A stretch of DNA of 25,354 nucleotides. Origin: a virus. The first letter of the stretch is position 1. Every line of letters starts with the position of its first letter. The stretch lies in the IMG/VR virus record IMGVR_UViG_3300034092_000751, positions 1 to 25,354 of that record; one strand, given 5' to 3'. A program made the translations under genes and the position numbers. Below the pieces are notes generated by a model. That model had not been told where the DNA came from and did no database searches. It saw nothing but the letters and a program-made list of their open reading frames with translations. Below are positions 1 through 22,915 of this stretch, in pieces.

Positions 1-3000
1 CCCGCTCGTCATAGAACTCAGTCATGCGGCGTGTGCCCACGGGGTCGTACAGGTAGTTGCTCAGGAGCGCGTACTTGTGCAGTGGGCGGTCAACTCGCGT
101 TGGGTTCAGCAGGCTGTCAGTCGTGGCCACCAGCAGCCCGGCAGTCGAGCCGAAGTACCCGCTCAGTGCGTTGTCCACCAAGATGGGCGAGATTTTGTCC
201 ACACCCACCACGTCACGGCTGAAGTTGGCAATGGCGATGGCCAGCTCCGACGTGTTCGACGCCCGGCGCATGCTGGGGTCCTGCTGCTTTTGGTAGATGC
301 CTTCCAGCTCCCGGCCAGTGAAGAACGAGTAGTTGGTCCATGCTTCCAGCAAAGGTTTGGCAGCCTGCGGGATAGGCACCGTGCGGCCGACGTACTGCTC
401 CATGATGTAGGCCAGAGCCGTGCGGGTGGCCTCCCATGCAGTCTGCTCCTCTGGGGTGCCTTGGCGGCGCATGTACTCGACGATGCGCTCCGGGATGACC
501 TTGAACAGCGCACCCAGTTCGGTTGGCACCGGCAGTTTGTAGCCGCCCGGCAGTATCCAGTTGCTGTCCCGGGTGCGCAGGTCCATCTCGTTGTAGTCTT
601 CGTCGTCATCCCCCTTGCCGAGTGCGTACAGCGTGCTCAGTGTCATGGCGATGGCAGCCCGGCTGTAGAACATGCGACGCGCTTGGGCCCGGCCCACTGA
701 GGAGCTGGAGTCCTTGCCGGATGCGGCGCGGTACAGCACGTCCATACCTTGGATGTATGCGTTGAAGAACGGGATGGTGGTCACCATGGCACCGACGAAA
801 TCGGAAGCGCCACGGCGGCGGAAGTTGATGAATTCCCGGGCCCGGGTCTGCGCCAGCAGTTGATCGCCTTGCGACTCCTTGATCGTCTGGTCGTAGATGG
901 CCTTGCGCACGGCCAAGTCAGACGCCCGGGTGATGCCCTCCAGTCGGTGCATGAGGGTCTCGAACTTGCCGCGTGGGCGGTAGCCGATGTCCTTGAGCAG
1001 CGACACTGCAGGCTTACCCTGCTGGAAGTCGAATTCACCTGTGAGACCCAGAGCCTCCATCTCGCTCACGGTGGGGTGGCGGATACCGCGCAGCTCAGCC
1101 AGTGCAAGCCCGCCGAAGTTGGAGAGCGTCATGCGCAGCAGTGCGCCGGGATTCTTCACACCGGAGGTCATGATGGCCCGCTGCACGTCGTCCGTCACCT
1201 GCTTGAGCGCAAAGGGCGGCAGGATCGTCACCGACTTGCGCAGCACGTTGGACACTTGGCCCAGCACCTGCAGCCACTTGGCCTTGGGTGGGTTGAGTTC
1301 TTGGAAGGCTGCCGCGTCGTAGCTGGACGGCAGGTCCCAGTACATGAGCTCGCCCTTGACGTAGGCCTTGGCCGTGCGGTGCTTGGTGCCGGGCATGCGC
1401 GACGGCTTGCCGGTGTACCCCAAGTCCTCCAGACTGCGCAGGGTTTGCACTCGGGCATCGTTGGTCATAACTTGGCCAACCATCCAGCCCATGGTGTTGA
1501 GGTAGTTCTCGAACACGTTGCCTACAGGCCGATCAAACGAGCCCTTGAGCTCGGGGTTCTTGGTCAGCATCAATGGCGCACGCCCGGTGGTCCGCTTGAC
1601 TGCAGTGAAGCGCTCTGCGAAGTCATCAATGCGGTCGAACGGCACGTAGCCGATCACGGACTTCCACTCGTCGCCCTGCTCCTTGGACAGCCGGCCCACT
1701 TTCACCATCTGGTCGACCAGCGCAATACGGGGCTTGTCCATGGCAGCGTTCATCTCTGCAAACGCTGGGTCTGCGTTGTACTCAGCCACCAGCAGCGCGC
1801 GGTCTGCATCCTTGATGTGTTTGGGGAAGTCGGGGTTGGTCTTTAGCACCTGCTCCAAACGGTAGGCCTCGATGACCCGGCTGGCAAACTGCTCGGCGCG
1901 CTCTTTGCTGCGGCCGGTGCGCTCCCCCCATGCGTAGATCAGCGGGAACACGTCGGTGGGCGCACTGCCATCGGCGGACTTGACCACTTTGTACTGGCCT
2001 GTTTCCTTCTCCTTTTGCAAGGAGCCCTCTTGGAAGTACGCCAGCAGCAGCTTGGAGTAGTCCTGCGCCTGACGGTACAGGCCCATGGGGTTGAGCTTGC
2101 CCAAGCTGTCGCGCACCGCGCCGTTGAAATGCCCGCTGAGCTTGTCCTCAACGGCAGCAGCAGAGTCGGCCACAGCCACGCGGAACTTGACCCCACGGCT
2201 TGGCTCGGCCGCAGCGCGCTCGCTGTCCTGTGCCCCTTTGAACATGCCCAGCACGCCGCGCTTGTCGATCGGTGTCAGATCGCCCATGCTGTCAACCACG
2301 TCTTCTGCGGTGTAGCTCTTGGCAAACTGCTTGCCGGTCTGCTTCTGCGCGCCCTCCATCTCCTCTTTGGTCAGGCCCAACAGGGTGTCGCCTACGCGCA
2401 ACGCTTCGGACAGGGCGGTGTCGGCCTTGGCCGGAATGCCCAGCAAGTCACGTACGTAAGTGACGAACTTGTTCCATGCAGTCTGACCCTTGTAGGGGAT
2501 AGTCTCCATGTACTGCTGCATCTCGCGGTTGGTCATGGACCAGACGAGAATCTCGTGCGAATCCGCAAGCGCGTTGTTCATACCGTTGTAATACCGCTGC
2601 TCGAAGTCGGTCAGCTTTGTGCCCGAGGCTGCGCGGTCGTTAAAGTGCTTGACAACAGCGCTTTGGAGCGCGAGGAGCTCGCGCACAGCCGTGCCGACTT
2701 TGGTGCCTTCAGCAGACTTGTAGCGCCCGACTTCAATAGCGCCCAACGTCGCTGCATGCAGCAGCTCATGCAAAATCACCTCGGGAGTAGTGCCGGATAA
2801 GGTGCCGTTGGACGGATGGTTGAGCGTGATGGTAATGGTTACGGGGCCGCTGCCAGCGGTGCGTTTGCCTCTAAAGTTTGTCGAGCCCAAGGCCCCGATC
2901 AAACGCCGCCCTTCGTCGGCAACCTTTACGGGGTTGAGCACTACCCCCATGTCTTGCAACTGGCGCAGTTTGACCAGCACCCGCTGCGCAATGACTTTCT

Positions 3001-5455
3001 GGTCAGGGTCAGGCAGGTTTTGCGCCGCCCATTGGGCCACGTCCACCATGGGCTTGCCGCTGATCGCTTTGAGCGTAGCTTCGTCCGACGGCGTTGAGGT
3101 CTTGGTGGGGGTTGCAGGTTCGAGTTCCGGCTCCTTGGTGAAGTCCAGCTCCATTTGACGCTTGTCTTTTTTGGCTGCGGCGGGGGCCTCTTCTGCCTCG
3201 GCCTCGGGCTTCTTCCGCTCCGCGTACTCGATCTCTTCCTTCTTGGTCATCGGGAACAGCATGGCCTGCGGGCCTCGCAGGATTTCCTTCTGGCCCTCTT
3301 CCATGCCGAACTCCGACGTGCCGGTGGGCTCGTACATTTTCTCTGGGATCGGCTTGGACGGCTCAGCTTTCTTGGGTGCCGCAGGCGCAGGCTTGGCAGC
3401 GGCGGGTGTGGGCCGTTGGGCTTTCTCCAGTGCCTCAAGGCGGCGCTTCATGTCCTCAGCCTCGGCCTTGCGGGCGGCTTCCGCATCAGCCGCTTCGGCT
3501 TCTACCGTGGGTGCTGGTGCTGGTGCTGGTGCTGGTGCTGGCTTGGCTGGTGTTACTGCAGCCGGCTCTGTTCCTTGAGCGCCATCTCCCGACACAACAG
3601 GCCGTCCAGCAGATACCAATCCGCGTCCGTCAGGTGCGACAGGTTCTCCGGCGGTAGCGGGTGCTCCGGCTCCGGGTTCAGGAACGATGGGGGCTGCAGG
3701 CTCACTAGGAACTCCCACGCTTGGCTCACCAGCTCGGGGCTCATCTCGCTGCTCAACTGCAGGCGTCGGGGCAGGGGTCGGCTCACTGGGTTTCTCCTTA
3801 AACGGCGCTGGCTGCGGTGCCAGCAGTTCACGCAAAATCTTGGCCCGTTTGCCGGGCCCGTCAACAAGCGTCGGGTCTTTGTCGACCATTGCCTGCACTT
3901 CGGCTTGCGTCTTGCCAACTACGTTCTTTTCGAACCAACCCTTGGTCGTGGACGGCGCGATGCCCGTATCCAACACGTTCTGCAGAGTAAACGGCTGCGC
4001 CACCTCACCGCCACGCATTGGCAGTTTGTACTGGTACGGCCCACTTCGAGCGTATGTTGGCACAGGGGTCGGCTCGCCGGGCTCTTCGGGTTTTTTGGCC
4101 TCGGGGATTTTTGGCTCCACGACGCCTTCGCCAAGGTCTTCGCCCGGGAACAACTCACCCTGCGTGCGGGCTTTGACTTCATCCGGCTGGGTCAGCAGAT
4201 CAGGGGCGTTGGCCAATGCTGGGAACTTCTTGCGGGTAGCGGCATCTTCGGCGGCTGCAGCGACAGCCAGCTCCTTCTCGGCGCGGATGCTCTCAATGTC
4301 ACTCTGGGTGAAGAGCTGCATCTGCCCGGTCAGCTCCGCCACGCGCGCTTTGACCTCTGGGGTCTGGGGCTGCTGGCGCAGGCGCTCGCGCTCCGTAGCC
4401 ATGTCGGCGTACTCACGCTGGAAGTCAAGGCCGAGGTCTTGCTGCCCTTCGGGTACGGCCATGGCCGCAGGCGGCTCAGCGGGTTCTGGGGCGCGGACCA
4501 CAGGCTTACCAAACAGGTCCCGGTCTGGCTCGGCGGGGACGGCGCGCTCGTCCGGCGCAAGCAACTCGCCCTGAACGCCCGGGGCGGTAACCAAGGGAAG
4601 GCTGGGCGGGGTTGGTTGGGCTGCGGCTTTTGCTGCGGCGGCTGCATCATCTTCTGCTTTGGCGGCGGCTGCGCCGCGTGCGCGTCGGCCGATGGCCAAG
4701 TCCAACAGACCCTGCACGATCGCGCCGGTTGCGCCGCCGTAGGCAGCTTGCTCTCCCAACCCGTCAATGAGCGCCTGCTCTGGCTTGTAGACACCCCGGG
4801 CGATCATGTTCTGGGCAAGGCCCGACGCGACTTCCTGCGCGGCTTCTTCACCACCTGCAACAAAGGCACGCTTGACGGCCTCCACCCCTGCAGCTTTGGA
4901 CGCCGTGGGGATGCGGGACAGGATACGGATCGGGGCGAACGCCTCCAGTGCGCCGGGGATTACACCCAAGGCCGTGGCAGTGCCGCGTTGGTCTGCGGTA
5001 GCGCCTTCTTGCTCAGCACGCGTGCGGGCTTCTCCGGCTCCGGCACCAACACCCATACCAACGGCAGCCGCGCGCCCCGCCAAACCGAACGGACCGGCAA
5101 GGAGAAACGGCGCGGTGGAGCCGATGGCCTCACTCAACTTGCGTGGGATGGATTCTTCGTACCCGGGGGCTGCAGCAAACGGCGCTTTGGCGGCAGCGGC
5201 CACCGACTTGATCTTCTCCCGAGCGGATTTCTCCATGTCCTCGGGCAGCAGCGCCGACGCGCCTGTGGCAGCGCTCTCGACCAACCCAACTGCGCCGGGC
5301 ACGAGGCCCTTGAACAGTTCCTTGGCCCCACCCAGCATGGTGGTAGGTTGGCTTGAAGCCAGAACCCGTTTGACCGTCGCTTGAATTACGCTAGGGTCGG
5401 TGCCGTCAGGAAACTCAAGGACTCGTCCATCGGCCAGTTCTGCTTCAATCGCCAT
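1..5455 (-). CDS. Giant virion-associated polyprotein (putative DNA-ejection protein) with zincin motif and LPD38-like region; 3' end outside window
   Basis: The frame stays open from the ATG at 5455 to the left edge, giving at least 1818 residues with no stop. A GAGGT-type ribosome site lies just upstream, overlapping the stop of the preceding gene. Visible in order: an N-terminal acidic segment with FPDGT (about residues 15-20), also seen at the N-terminus of other phage internal proteins; an Ala/Gly-rich, partly hydrophobic region (about 110-255); long Pro/Ala/Glu-rich linkers (about 255-780) including an Ala-Pro repeat near 640; a zinc-protease motif HELLH at 896-900 with E968 as a possible third ligand; a helical region with YVPFDR at 1270-1275; and a C-terminal region with NFRRRG near 1544 and IPFFN at 1561-1565, resembling LPD38 of phage polyvalent proteins. 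Last in a row of four large proteins, it fits the position of the largest T7-type ejection protein (gp16). The protease role and LPD38 label are inferences. Confidence 0.8.
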   Translation of the reverse strand, partial: MAIEAELADGRVLEFPDGTDPSVIQATVKRVLASSQPTTMLGGAKELFKGLVPGAVGLVESAATGASALLPEDMEKSAREKIKSVAAAAKAPFAAAPGYEESIPRKLSEAIGSTAPFLLAGPFGLAGRAAAVGMGVGAGAGEARTRAEQEGATADQRGTATALGVIPGALEAFAPIRILSRIPTASKAAGVEAVKRAFVAGGEEAAQEVASGLAQNMIARGVYKPEQALIDGLGEQAAYGGATGAIVQGLLDLAIGRRARGAAAAKAEDDAAAAAKAAAQPTPPSLPLVTAPGVQGELLAPDERAVPAEPDRDLFGKPVVRAPEPAEPPAAMAVPEGQQDLGLDFQREYADMATERERLRQQPQTPEVKARVAELTGQMQLFTQSDIESIRAEKELAVAAAAEDAATRKKFPALANAPDLLTQPDEVKARTQGELFPGEDLGEGVVEPKIPEAKKPEEPGEPTPVPTYARSGPYQYKLPMRGGEVAQPFTLQNVLDTGIAPSTTKGWFEKNVVGKTQAEVQAMVDKDPTLVDGPGKRAKILRELLAPQPAPFKEKPSEPTPAPTPAVEQRDEPRAGEPSVGVPSEPAAPIVPEPGAGAPATAGEPVAPDGRGLVSAGRPVVSGDGAQGTEPAAVTPAKPAPAPAPAPAPTVEAEAADAEAARKAEAEDMKRRLEALEKAQRPTPAAAKPAPAAPKKAEPSKPIPEKMYEPTGTSEFGMEEGQKEILRGPQAMLFPMTKKEEIEYAERKKPEAEAEEAPAAAKKDKRQMELDFTKEPELEPATPTKTSTPSDEATLKAISGKPMVDVAQWAAQNLPDPDQKVIAQRVLVKLRQLQDMGVVLNPVKVADEGRRLIGALGSTNFRGKRTAGSGPVTITITLNHPSNGTLSGTTPEVILHELLHAATLGAIEVGRYKSAEGTKVGTAVRELLALQSAVVKHFNDRAASGTKLTDFEQRYYNGMNNALADSHEILVWSMTNREMQQYMETIPYKGQTAWNKFVTYVRDLLGIPAKADTALSEALRVGDTLLGLTKEEMEGAQKQTGKQFAKSYTAEDVVDSMGDLTPIDKRGVLGMFKGAQDSERAAAEPSRGVKFRVAVADSAAAVEDKLSGHFNGAVRDSLGKLNPMGLYRQAQDYSKLLLAYFQEGSLQKEKETGQYKVVKSADGSAPTDVFPLIYAWGERTGRSKERAEQFASRVIEAYRLEQVLKTNPDFPKHIKDADRALLVAEYNADPAFAEMNAAMDKPRIALVDQMVKVGRLSKEQGDEWKSVIGYVPFDRIDDFAERFTAVKRTTGRAPLMLTKNPELKGSFDRPVGNVFENYLNTMGWMVGQVMTNDARVQTLRSLEDLGYTGKPSRMPGTKHRTAKAYVKGELMYWDLPSSYDAAAFQELNPPKAKWLQVLGQVSNVLRKSVTILPPFALKQVTDDVQRAIMTSGVKNPGALLRMTLSNFGGLALAELRGIRHPTVSEMEALGLTGEFDFQQGKPAVSLLKDIGYRPRGKFETLMHRLEGITRASDLAVRKAIYDQTIKESQGDQLLAQTRAREFINFRRRGASDFVGAMVTTIPFFNAYIQGMDVLYRAASGKDSSSSVGRAQARRMFYSRAAIAMTLSTLYALGKGDDDEDYNEMDLRTRDSNWILPGGYKLPVPTELGALFKVIPERIVEYMRRQGTPEEQTAWEATRTALAYIMEQYVGRTVPIPQAAKPLLEAWTNYSFFTGRELEGIYQKQQDPSMRRASNTSELAIAIANFSRDVVGVDKISPILVDNALSGYFGSTAGLLVATTDSLLNPTRVDRPLHKYALLSNYLYDPVGTRRMTEFYDER
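3511..3540. repeat. Hexanucleotide tandem repeat encoding Ala-Pro linker
   Basis: Five perfect copies of GTGCTG on the plus strand. On the coding strand this gives an Ala-Pro repeat near residue 640 of the giant polyprotein, a rigid linker of the type that may change length by slippage. Confidence 0.9.
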
Positions 5456-18228: not shown

Positions 18229-18657
18229 TTAAAGCTCCACAATATCAATTTTTCCGTTAGCATTTTCCGGGACAATAACCCAAGATACAGTCGCCTCATC
18301 CCAAGTGTAATACGGAGGGCTGTTCGGCTCCGGCATTGGCACGGGTGATTCCCACAAATACGAAAAGCTGTTCATGACCCATGAAGGATAGGGCGACGGA
18401 GACGCAAAGCCCCCACCCTCTGGTCCGTTGGGTAGCCACGTAAAGCCAATCCCTGCAAAGTTCTTGCGAAACGCTTTGGACTGGTCGGGATCAGGTGTAT
18501 TGGTGTTGGGGGTGTAATACACGCCGCCATGCGTGTTATAGCTGGTTTGCACCCAAGTTGCTGGGTCGCCCCAGCTACCCGTGTCAATCTCTGCTTGGTC
18601 AATGACCAGCACGCGCCGGACAATGCTGTTCTCGTCGATTTGGGCAAATTGGCTCAT
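18229..18657 (-). CDS. Small conserved phage protein of tail-fibre region, 142 aa
   Basis: The start is the ATG at 18657, coupled by ATGA to the glycine-rich protein gene. The N-terminus FAQIDENSIVRRVLVID and the block WVQTSYNTHGGVYYTP followed by FRKNFAGIGFTW match a pattern I recall from many cyanophage and other aquatic phage genomes, usually unnamed and next to fibre genes. The C-terminal half is Pro/Trp-rich with several Trp-containing repeats (SWVMNSFSYLWESP, WDEATVSWVIV). It is probably a structural or fibre-associated protein. No enzyme motif is present. Confidence 0.7.
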   Translation of the reverse strand: MSQFAQIDENSIVRRVLVIDQAEIDTGSWGDPATWVQTSYNTHGGVYYTPNTNTPDPDQSKAFRKNFAGIGFTWLPNGPEGGGFASPSPYPSWVMNSFSYLWESPVPMPEPNSPPYYTWDEATVSWVIVPENANGKIDIVEL

Positions 18658-19685
18658 GCTGTAAATGTCCCAGAGGATGTGAAGGTGTGGTATGTATAGC
18701 CGCCAGCAGAAGTGACTGTGCCGCCAGTGCCGCGCTGGGAGCCTGCATAACGGATGATGACGACGCCTGAACCGCCGCTGCGTCCAACACCGCTGTAAAC
18801 GGTAGCCCCGCCACCGCCACCGCCTGAGTTTGCCGCCCCGTCTGTTGCGGCAGTATCTACCCCCGAAGCTCCACCCCCGCCTAGACTTCCCGCAGCACCG
18901 ACATTATAAGCAACAGTACTGTACCCGTATGGTGTGGCAAATGCAGTAGAACCGCCGCCCCCTGCATACGCAATACCGTTTAACCACACCTTTCCAGCCC
19001 CGCCAACACCCCCAGAGGCCATGCCACTGGCAGTCCCCGCAGCATTTGCACCGCCGCCGCTGCCGCTCCGAGCCACCCGGTAAAAATTGTTATACCCTTG
19101 GTAAACGTCGGTAGCTGTGGCGGTGCCTCCGTTGTTTCCTTGCCCGGAAATTCCAGTCCCGGCAGTGAATGATGGGTAGGTAGAAGCACCGCCGCCAGAC
19201 CCGCCACTTGTGGCACCAGCGGCGCTGGCGGCTCCGCCAGCCCCACCGCCTATAGAAGTAGTGCTATTGAACGACGAATTATTGCCGCTACCGCCTGTAG
19301 CGGCACTGGGGGCACTTACCGCTGCACCACCTGACCCTACTGTCGCTGTGTATGAAGCCCCAGATGCAACAGTTATTGCTGAAATGGCTTGGTAACCGCC
19401 AGCGCCGCCGCCCCCTTGCCCAAGATAGGACCCCCAACCCGGCTGCCCGGTCCCACCTGCACCACCACCAGCAACAACCAAATATTCAATGGTGTAGGCG
19501 TTCGCTTTTCCATACAACGAGTTCATGCTCCACGAGGTGCCGCTACCACCAACACCTGCAAGAGTGCGGACTGCTGCATCGTTCATTGAGATAGTCGCGG
19601 TCAGGCTCAGACCGAGTTCTTGAGCGACACTGACTGGGCTTGATGTGCCTCCCATGTTCAGGGGGCCGCTTGCTGGCATTACCAT
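18654..19685 (-). CDS. Glycine-rich tail/receptor-binding protein candidate, 343 aa
   Basis: The start is the ATG at 19685 behind a perfect AAGGAG. An N-terminal region of about 65 residues (MNLYGKA-type helix: SWSMNSLYGKANAY) leads to YTIEYLVVAGGGAGG, then about 200 residues dominated by Gly, Ala and Ser runs. The protein ends with GSGVVIIRYAGS and a last beta segment GGYTYHTFTSSGTFTA. This is the architecture of glycine-rich phage tail proteins (Gly_rich_2 type). The glycine clusters could form polyglycine-II sheets, as in the S16 gp38 adhesin. It follows two fibre genes, so a tip or host-recognition role is plausible. Confidence 0.75.
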   Translation of the reverse strand: MVMPASGPLNMGGTSSPVSVAQELGLSLTATISMNDAAVRTLAGVGGSGTSWSMNSLYGKANAYTIEYLVVAGGGAGGTGQPGWGSYLGQGGGGAGGYQAISAITVASGASYTATVGSGGAAVSAPSAATGGSGNNSSFNSTTSIGGGAGGAASAAGATSGGSGGGASTYPSFTAGTGISGQGNNGGTATATDVYQGYNNFYRVARSGSGGGANAAGTASGMASGGVGGAGKVWLNGIAYAGGGGSTAFATPYGYSTVAYNVGAAGSLGGGGASGVDTAATDGAANSGGGGGGATVYSGVGRSGGSGVVIIRYAGSQRGTGGTVTSAGGYTYHTFTSSGTFTA

Positions 19686-20578: not shown

Positions 20579-22915
20579 TTATCCTTTCGCCTCAAGGGCG
20601 GCTATGCGAGCTTCGAGCGCAACAACACGTTCCGCCAACTTTACAGCAGCAACAAGGGCTGCGTTTCCGTATGCGAGGGTGAGGTTGCCTTTTTCATCAG
20701 TCTGGACCACCTCTGGCAAAAACGCCTGCATTTGCTGAGCGGACACACCGGCCTGCCGGTCGTCTGAATCAATCCGGGTGTATGTGCCGTGCTTGATCTT
20801 TGCCAACTGCGAAAGAAAATCACCGGGTAAATCGGCCCAGTCTTTTTTCAATCGCTCATCAGAATACGCAGTGACGTTGCCCGTGCAGACCAAGTTGCCA
20901 GCGTTTAGGTTGTAGTTTGTCCCGTCCCAGTACAGGTAGTGAGAGCCCGCGCTGCTGAGGTAGATTACCCCGGTTGTACCGCCACTTCGGTATGCAGTCA
21001 TATCTCCGTTGACCGCAGTAATTCCAGTACTGACGCCGGATGTGTTTGGAGTGGCGGTAAGTCTTGTAACTGAAACCGTCCCCGCGCTGAAGTTGCCAGA
21101 GGCATCCCGAGCAACGAGCGTTGAAACGGTGTTGGCGCTTGTTGCGTTCGATGTGACGGTGAACGTCGCGTTGCCTGATTGGTTGGCGGTGAATGTCTGA
21201 GAACCCGACAGGCCAGTGCCCGACACGTTCATTGTGAGCGTGCCGTTGTTGACGTTGGCCGCTGTGGTAGCCGTCGTAGCGTTACCGCTCAGTGCCGCAG
21301 TGATCGTGCCTGCGCTGAAGTTGCCCGAGGCGTCACGCGCTACGACCTTGCTGGCCGTGTTGGCGGATGTGGCGTCCACTGCCGCAGTGACTGCGCCAGA
21401 GCCGTTGTAGCTTGTACCGGTCAGATACGAACCCAATGTCAAAGCGTTCAGGTTGCTGCCCAAGGCCACACCCGAGATCGTGCCAGCACTCCATGTGAAC
21501 GCAGAGCCGTTCCAGTTCAGAACTTGGTTGGAGGCTGTGGGCGCTACCGCGAATGTCGTGGCCCCTGATCCGGTCTGGTACGCAATCTGGTTGGCCGCGC
21601 CGCCTGCAAGGTTGGTCGCTGTGGTTGCGCTTGTTGCCGAACCGCTCAGTGTGGCCGTGATAGTCCCGGCGCTGAAGTTGCCCGATGCGTCACGCGCCAC
21701 GACCTTGGAAGCAGTGTTGGCGTCCGTGGCATCCACGGCAAAAGTGCGGGCTGCGGAGCCATCAAACGTGCCGCCAGAAGTCAGGAACGTGCCCGCTGTC
21801 AGAGCGTTGGCCACCGAGCCAGCTTGGCCTGAGATGTTGCCCGACACCGCTGCGCCCGAGATGGCGATGGCCGTGGGGGTGACGCCTGTGACTTGACCTT
21901 GTGCGTTCGTGGTGATTACCGGCACCGTAGCGGCATCGCCGTATGTGCCAGCAGTACCCGTGTTGGTGATGCTGAACTGTGTGCCAGAGAGGGTCAAGCC
22001 CGTGCCTGCGCTGTAAATCTGCGCGGAGCTGATCTGGGCAAACGTGATGTTGGTTGTGCCAAACGTGATGACGCCGGTCGTGTTGCAGGTGTATGTCTCA
22101 CCTGCGCCTGTTGCGCCTTGCTGCACAAAAACGGTAGAGCCTTCGCTCAAGCCCGCAGCATTGTTGATGACGTAAGTGTCCGCATCACTGGAGCGAGTCA
22201 AAATCCAGTTGGTCGATCCCGAGCCCACGTTTGTCACCACGTAGATACCGTTTTGTGTCTGGGTAGTCTGCTGATACACCAACACGCGATCCGCCACGCT
22301 GACCGTCACACCATCAATTACCAAGGCAGCTTGTGCCCCTGCGTTGGTCAGAGTTGCGCCCACACCGGCGGTGCCGTTGTTGTACGTTGCGTTCAGGTTG
22401 ATCGGTGCTTCCACCCGCACTGGCTGGTGGAAGTGGATGCCGCTCGCTATGAGCGCATCGACGTAGGTCTTGTTGACCAAATCGTTTGCGCTGGCAGGTG
22501 CTGTTGAAACCGTGCCCGCTGTAATGTTGGCGGTGGTGATGTTGGCCGTGCTCGCACCCAAGGTGCCGATGTCCAGCACCGAAACGGCAGAGCCCGCTGC
22601 GTCCAGATACACCGCACGCGAAGATGGGTATGTGACAAACACGTCCTTGGAGCCAGCGCCAAAGTTCACCAGAGAACCAGCGTTGCTGGACGACACCACG
22701 GTTGTGCGCGACAGGGTTGTGCCCGAGGATGTGTAAGTGCCGACGCCCACTTCCCAAGCGCCAGATGCCGAGTCCACAATGGCGTAGAAGGTCTGGTTGC
22801 CGTCACCAACAGCGGCAAAGGACTGGAACCCTGCGGCTGCGCCAGCCAACGTAACCGTGCCGGTGCCGGTTGTTGTGGTCGTTTCCTTGACGCGATCTTT
22901 GAGTACCAATGCCAT
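20579..22915 (-). CDS. Tail fibre with C-terminal peptidase S74 (intramolecular chaperone) domain, 778 aa
   Basis: The start is the ATG at 22915 with AAGGACTC upstream. The N-terminal 100 residues carry a common phage module (LKDRVKETTTTTGTGTVTLA, then DGNQTFYAIVDSASGAWEVG and GTTLSRTTVV), probably the virion-attachment part. A long Ser/Thr/Ala/Gly shaft follows, with three copies of a VARDASGNFSAGT element. The last 94 residues begin SDERLKKDW, the S74 signature: S685 and K690 form the Ser-Lys dyad that cleaves the chaperone off after trimer folding, as in endosialidases. The end is a heptad coiled coil (ERVVALEARIAALEAKG). Role: host recognition fibre that self-processes. Confidence 0.9.
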   Translation of the reverse strand: MALVLKDRVKETTTTTGTGTVTLAGAAAGFQSFAAVGDGNQTFYAIVDSASGAWEVGVGTYTSSGTTLSRTTVVSSSNAGSLVNFGAGSKDVFVTYPSSRAVYLDAAGSAVSVLDIGTLGASTANITTANITAGTVSTAPASANDLVNKTYVDALIASGIHFHQPVRVEAPINLNATYNNGTAGVGATLTNAGAQAALVIDGVTVSVADRVLVYQQTTQTQNGIYVVTNVGSGSTNWILTRSSDADTYVINNAAGLSEGSTVFVQQGATGAGETYTCNTTGVITFGTTNITFAQISSAQIYSAGTGLTLSGTQFSITNTGTAGTYGDAATVPVITTNAQGQVTGVTPTAIAISGAAVSGNISGQAGSVANALTAGTFLTSGGTFDGSAARTFAVDATDANTASKVVARDASGNFSAGTITATLSGSATSATTATNLAGGAANQIAYQTGSGATTFAVAPTASNQVLNWNGSAFTWSAGTISGVALGSNLNALTLGSYLTGTSYNGSGAVTAAVDATSANTASKVVARDASGNFSAGTITAALSGNATTATTAANVNNGTLTMNVSGTGLSGSQTFTANQSGNATFTVTSNATSANTVSTLVARDASGNFSAGTVSVTRLTATPNTSGVSTGITAVNGDMTAYRSGGTTGVIYLSSAGSHYLYWDGTNYNLNAGNLVCTGNVTAYSDERLKKDWADLPGDFLSQLAKIKHGTYTRIDSDDRQAGVSAQQMQAFLPEVVQTDEKGNLTLAYGNAALVAAVKLAERVVALEARIAALEAKG
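21084..21706. repeat. Three dispersed copies of a fibre-shaft repeat
   Basis: Near-identical segments at 21084-21117, 21312-21349 and 21669-21706 on the plus strand, each starting GCGCTGAAGTTGCC. They encode the VARDASGNFSAG element of the S74 fibre. The latter two copies are the more similar pair. Confidence 0.8.

Follow-up and report, generated by a model that had tools for sequence, protein, structure and literature searches.

The window, meaning the whole stretch of 25,354 nucleotides analysed here, begins inside a large gene carried on the minus strand (Table 1). The reading frame starts with an ATG at 5455 and leaves the window at position 2 after 1,818 residues. The sequence-only reading had described an open frame running off the window; it does so, on the minus strand, and the complete protein of 1,914 amino acids is found in a near-identical contig (locus L002), which is identical over the part lying in the window. 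At the N-terminus (5375-5455, minus strand) an FPDGTDP motif is seen, which is also present in the relative L109 and lies in a weak match to phrog_31061 (E 0.07). No stretch of the window protein passes a Kyte-Doolittle threshold of 1.5 over 19 residues and hence no membrane helix is claimed.

Four large genes lie next to one another on this strand (498, 1,215, 599 and 1,914 aa), with this one last and largest. For the 599 aa product nothing in Pfam exceeded the cut-off and nothing in PHROGs came under E 0.1, and for the 1,215 aa and 498 aa products no family was matched in Pfam or PHROGs. Genes for a virion structural protein (phrog_3287), a phage lysozyme, an S74 tail fibre and an SU10-type adaptor follow further upstream on the same strand. 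The tail-fibre-like protein (20579-22915, minus strand) has an S74-type chaperone domain (PF13884) near its end, and a glycine-rich protein is encoded near it at 18654-19685. DNA polymerase, helicase and primase are encoded by the sister contig. The large terminase was matched in seven of eight related records, above cut-off in five, and these seven are 61.2-67.5 kb long, with completeness not stated; no terminase match was obtained in the contig of L002, and no P22-type portal in any of the eight records. The virus would be a podovirus-type phage, uncultivated, with a genome of probably about 65 kb.

Table 1. Features of the probable ejection protein gene and of the genes upstream of it; positions are those of the window
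Feature	Position	Strand	Remarks
Probable ejection protein gene	2..5455	-	residues 1-1818 in the window; full length 1,914 aa in the L002 contig
N-module	3572..5455	-	residues 1-628; collinear in many relatives, whether or not they share the zincin class (blastp maps, swap pairs)
Linker	3119..3571	-	residues 629-779; upstream side of the cassette; within Pro/Ala-rich 561-779
Zincin cassette (predicted)	2336..3118	-	residues ~780-1040; PDB sequence match, AlphaFold2 model, VIA
HELLH	2756..2770	-	residues 896-900; presumed His ligands and general base
E968	2552..2554	-	probable third zinc ligand; invariant in 22 rows, predicted helix
C-module	2..2329	-	residues 1043-1818, continues beyond the window; abuts the zincin (alignments A1, A3)
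LPD38 (PF18857)	95..604	-	residues 1618-1787; Pfam
Upstream gene, 599 aa	5464..7263	-	candidate ejection-module gene, from gene order
Upstream gene, 1,215 aa	7273..10920	-	candidate ejection-module gene, from gene order
Upstream gene, 498 aa	10922..12418	-	candidate ejection-module gene, from gene order

LPD38 is the sole Pfam match in the protein (E 1.9e-27, 97 bits against a cut-off of 27), which makes it, as judged by profile, a clear LPD38 member differing in no respect seen from the family. The domain had been suspected at residues 1370-1740; it is real but is placed by Pfam nearer the C-terminus. To our knowledge no function has been assigned to LPD38. A profile of the whole C-module found nothing of note in the PDB (best E 0.21). 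An AlphaFold2 model built from 45 rows was poor (pLDDT 65.6), and its VIA-align matches, at Z 6.5 at best, were mostly to terminal helices. As regards the C-terminal hub fold shared by gp16-class ejection proteins, this model gave no VIA match above Z 8. In view of the missing PDB match and the poor model, no fold is claimed for the C-module. Of the long Pro/Ala linkers proposed beside the HExxH region, a Pro/Ala-rich stretch is seen on the upstream side alone (561-779, 37% Pro + Ala), the zincin and the C-module containing 15% each.

HELLH is the only HExxH in the protein, with 0.005 expected from its own composition. Conservation was followed in a 22-row alignment of the window protein, standing in for L002, and 21 relatives of the same zincin class (class A, described below), 19-84% identical to it; the cut-off L073 was omitted from the 23 class members. 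Five columns are invariant, namely A823, H896, E897, H900 and E968. The sequence-only reading had singled out the HELLH and had named E968 as a third-ligand candidate. Both choices are borne out, residue 968 being the Glu that is kept in every row. In PDB sequence searches residues 780-1038 matched 9sfn chain G, a 1,337 aa internal virion protein. The profile found this chain (E 3.5e-35), the tetrameric ejection protein of PhiM1 (5e-6, with HEAAH as its motif) and N4 vRNAP (E 0.0054), and in all three the HExxH and a Glu were aligned; a fourth match, 23sg chain S, was marginal at E 0.34. Among the PHROGs, residues 654-1057 matched a 'virion RNA polymerase' family and residues 1396-1780 a family of no assigned function. 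When the polymerase family (phrog_2206, N4-type) was searched piecewise, the zincin stretch matched (E 4.8e-13), and no match to residues 1-760 or to the C-module was seen at E <= 1.

The AlphaFold2 model of residues 776-1036 (pLDDT 80.5, pTM 0.76) has strands at model positions 75-77, 82-87 and 98-103. The HExxH (121-125) lies within the helix 116-135, so that H896, E897 and H900 are on one predicted helix, and E968 (model E193) lies within the later helix 191-200. The two outcomes named beforehand as refuting the zincin, motif residues not conserved or not on one helix, were both looked for and did not occur. In VIA-align the model was closest to the PhiM1 tetrameric ejection protein (8vb2_A, Z 9.7, rmsd 3.4 over 148 residues, chain 271-506) and to N4 gp50 (9pnt, Z 9.1, rmsd 3.8 over 188 residues, chain 2124-2365). 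Lethal factor entries (5.7 and below), a DPC-repair protease (4.8), presumably of the SPRTN type, and PPEP-1 (4.5) came next. Unrelated channels begin at Z 4.2, and therefore only the PhiM1 and N4 matches stand clear; the non-phage matches, all below Z 8, may reflect merely a common arrangement. Foldseek found no PDB match at E <= 0.001. Against viral models it gave 15 matches at that threshold, the best being to a core protein (1,337 aa) of a Pseudomonas phage, and up to E 0.01 the models were of internal virion or core proteins, N4-like polymerases, polyvalent proteins and a crAss-like phage protein. The zincin-like MPTase core has been described as an N-terminal helix, a three-stranded sheet and two C-terminal helices (PMC5512222), and these elements are matched by the predicted ones and by the VIA neighbours. 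From sequence and model together, residues 780-1040 are predicted to form an intact-looking zincin metallopeptidase domain, with zinc binding and proteolysis as its expected properties.

Domains of this type are known from other phage proteins. According to the parts of Iyer et al. (2017) compared here (PMC5512222), the zincin-like MPTase domain of polyvalent proteins was described then, together with its HExxxH variant. As in the window protein, an HExxH helix is followed by a helix bearing a Glu, in phage-type LPD38 proteins encoded among late genes. The C1 domain of N4 gp50 (2124-2375) carries a conserved HExxH (PMC12633501; PDB 9pnt, 11fw, as far as these sources were compared). The window zincin has a similar fold and a weak sequence match to it, and a large C-terminal region follows in both. 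In contrast to N4 vRNAP, the window protein shows no sign of a polymerase domain, either in Pfam or in the piecewise PHROG searches, and unlike that of N4 its C-terminal region has no detectable PDB match. A homologous zincin with HExxH and Glu is shared with those gp16-class (tetrameric) ejection proteins that have one, such as PhiM1 gp48 (8vb2; PMC11440229, in the part compared) and phiKMV gp37 (1,337 aa, the length of 9sfn chain G). Both are large internal virion proteins. They differ in being smaller than the window protein, in having their domains called endolysin-like and in C-terminal regions that are not detectably alike. The window protein is probably comparable to these two.

Relatives were collected from an initial 30 viral loci and then from a wider scan, in which 260 relatives were found and the best 80 kept. 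Already among the first 30 loci, the N-module (~1-628) and the C-module (from ~1043) were collinear in many relatives and the middle was often unalignable. From the loci so collected, the wider scan being limited to the best 80 of 260 relatives, 103 with a C-module frame were reduced to 62 at 95% identity. Four frames (L020, L048, L096, L101) are cut off before the slot, which left 58 with a readable slot. Exactly one HExxH or HExxxH per whole frame was present in 57 of the 58, as against 0.47 of 57 expected from shuffling. The exception, L109 (frame from 3615), has the linker alone between N-module and C-module; the zincin is dispensable at least there. In 51 of the 57 the motif lies 131-180 residues ahead of the C-module. 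The remaining six comprise L011, L015 and L029, in which an ART-PolyVal domain intervenes, L068, whose C-module start was misplaced by the profile, and L050 and L110 with distances of 255 and 290 residues. The ART (ADP-ribosyltransferase) domain was detected by pattern in these 3 of 57, in the same stretch as the zincin. A search of genome contigs gave one distant relative, L110.

The distance from the motif to the frame end is 996-1,251 residues in 55 family members (1,019 in L002). In five distant named phages, of Planktothrix, Aeromonas, Vibrio, Escherichia and Achromobacter, which were chosen and not sampled, an HExxH or HExxxH stands 999-1,253 residues before the frame end, and with phiKMV the range over the six named records is 915-1,253. 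Two loci carry additional elements. In L112 (frame from 1), the large polyvalent protein of Planktothrix phage Pag-Yong1, a second motif occurs 1,158 residues upstream of the one at the slot position. The slot region of L029 (5245-9597) consists of a stretch with an SFGC pattern, a class C zincin and ART-PolyVal. The SFGC stretch weakly matches a PHROG of no assigned function, and we take it to be a candidate L,D-transpeptidase-like domain.

When slot domains were linked by blastp hits over the motif, three classes were obtained: class B (HExGH...EWFAD) with 25 members, class A (HExxH...E) with 23, including the window, and class C (HEVGAH...DE) with 9. Profiles of the classes were only weakly joined by hhalign (probability 28, 2 and 2%; E 0.00065, 0.024 and 0.024); the first of these values, for A and B, suggests that these two classes may be distantly related. 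The later Glu is invariant in all three, beside HExxH or HExxxH. Four of five class B slots scanned resemble Peptidase_M78, below its cut-off.

The distribution of the classes was mapped on quick LG+G4 trees of the C-module. On a tree of 56 rows, from which the 3'-open L014 and L100 and the four cut-off frames were left out and in which L109 was unlabelled, at least 18 class changes are required, where the least possible is 2. Sixteen remain on a 50-row tree freed of long branches (L029, L075, L095, L107, L109 and L110 further left out), and when each class is counted by itself its strongly supported branches require no fewer than 9 changes for B, 7 for A and 5 for C. The class labels nevertheless cluster on the tree, since as few changes were seen in 1 of 200 shuffles; exchange is thus not free.

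Individual exchanges are seen in three pairs of different class whose N-modules share 80% identity or more and whose C-modules share 85% or more: L091/L093 (N-module 94.7%, C-module 99.4%), L050/L051 (98.6% and 95.0%) and L093/L094 (82.1% and 99.0%). L093 is common to two of these, so that at least two events are shown. In L050/L051 the identity is 98% up to about residue 787 and drops sharply there; the two proteins differ within the slot, and from about 1156 the identity is back at 95%; the aligned DNA stretches of this pair are 91-98% identical. Assembly chimerism was considered as the source of such pairs. The flank-matched pairs would need two junctions per contig, and the same slot is hit often and in frame; any single pair could be chimeric. 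The converse is also seen. The zincins of L088 and L093 are 85% identical and their C-modules 65%, and the window zincin (as L002) is 84% like that of L054, with C-modules at 69%. In 11 of 42 close same-class pairs the identity of the zincins exceeded that of the C-modules by 5 points or more.

Within the classes, close pairs show purifying selection. The dN/dS values, which are rough as many dS values exceed 1, were 0.035-0.196 in class A (12 close pairs), 0.046-0.199 in class B (12 of the 14 closest pairs, two being not computable) and 0.040-0.100 in class C (7 close pairs); L073 was omitted from both the dN/dS and the identity comparison. The sequences suggest a fixed slot in which three zincin classes have replaced one another repeatedly, and suggest that protease activity itself matters in infection. 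As the class is replaced while the catalytic residues are kept, one set per protein, selection would act on a protease-like activity and not on one domain.

These results bear on the role of the protein. The proposal that it is packaged and ejected with the DNA, made from the sequence alone, finds support in its relatives and in gene order. In the order of the chain, the N-module and the Pro/Ala-rich linker lead to the zincin directly ahead of the LPD38 C-module. The protein would be packed in the head and pass through the tail, and would refold in the cell envelope or beyond; there the zincin would bind zinc and cleave protein. We infer packaging, injection, zinc and activity, and consider it an even proposition that this is the largest ejection (internal virion) protein of the phage, with the zincin as a protease delivered into the cell. 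The idea that such a protease cleaves host proteins or processes its own chain is not new, both having been put forward by Iyer et al. in the part compared (PMC5512222). Host proteins appear the likeliest substrates, with the balance of chances level, and self-processing is the main rival. A host-directed effector would be expected to show frequent exchange of protease class while the remainder of the protein stays constant, and for this reason host substrates are favoured.

With self-processing, the zincin would cut its own chain or other ejection proteins, either while in the head or following entry, and free the C-module. Replacement of the class would then be neutral, since any protease with a nearby site would suffice. 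Iyer et al. proposed such a role with reference to the processing of P1 DdrB, and the same source, as far as compared, states that N4 vRNAP, a protein with a domain of this kind, is not processed before packaging (PMC5512222). The single motif per protein and its narrow range of distances from the C-module, kept also relative to the frame end in the six named records, are in keeping with self-processing, and self-cleavage after entry would also agree with the constant place of the zincin next to the C-module. Against it, the zincin domain of PhiM1 is part of a single 1,103-residue model of the chain in the mature particle, L109 does without a zincin, and frequent exchange between unchanged flanks would be unexpected if cutting sites had to match. 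The term 'polyprotein', which the sequence-only reading had applied, is rejected for want of cleavage evidence. We regard self-processing as rather unlikely. That the flanks are untouched by exchange, that N4 vRNAP is packaged unprocessed and that an ART domain sometimes joins the stretch incline us to attack on the host, and the zincin is more likely host-directed than the processing protease of a polyprotein.

The domain could also be non-catalytic, a structural or regulatory part such as an interaction or refolding module which retains a metal site, as the polymerase-contacting C1 domain of N4 might be. The C-terminal domain of N4, C1 included, dampens transcription (PMC12633501, in the part compared). 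This reading is improbable in view of the class A columns, where apart from one Ala nothing but H, E, H and E is invariant, as in a catalytic site, and of the three classes, which are barely joined by hhalign and yet all keep HExxH or HExxxH and the later Glu. A peptidoglycan-degrading domain, as the annotation of phiKMV gp37 (L116, 4071-8084; 'internal virion protein with endolysin domain') and the 'endolysin/exotransglycosidase-like' label of PhiM1 Asp268-Asp528 (PMC11440229, in the part compared) would have it, is very improbable, because phiKMV gp37 has no Pfam match, to a peptidoglycan hydrolase domain or any other, at E <= 1, its region matching the window zincin contains HEAVH (residue 424 of the stop-to-stop frame) and a later Glu, as PhiM1 has its own motif and Glu, the best-ranked non-phage fold neighbours (at low Z) cut proteins, and the window has a separate lysozyme gene. 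The 'endolysin' label of the phiKMV and PhiM1 proteins is itself questionable, as the domain looks like a metallopeptidase.

Returning to the host-directed protease, proteins and domains of this kind had been described before, as had their association with LPD38 and the notion that a protease is injected; the exchange at the slot is the element for which no precedent was met in the literature searched. In the parts of Iyer et al. compared (PMC5512222), cassette recombination is raised for polyvalent loci with protein kinases, and repeated class replacement at one slot does not appear. No description of it was found in the titles and abstract openings searched, a body outside which most subscription journals and bioRxiv lie; the literature compared in part includes work on phage DEV (PMC10925440), P1 Dar (PMC12810830), a soft-rot phage (PMC8472413) and JC1 (PMC9144972), and an ejection-protein review (PMC8954989). 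We tentatively propose, at somewhat short of an even chance, that an interchangeable protease cartridge of three barely alike classes sits ahead of the LPD38 C-module and is traded between lineages under host pressure, serving as an injected effector against host factors or defence. If true, this would parallel, in phages, the exchange of cassettes seen in polymorphic toxins. Judging from the slot census, what selection appears to preserve is the catalytic site and not one given domain, and the census provides natural pairs of proteins, near-identical but for their protease, with which the question is directly testable.
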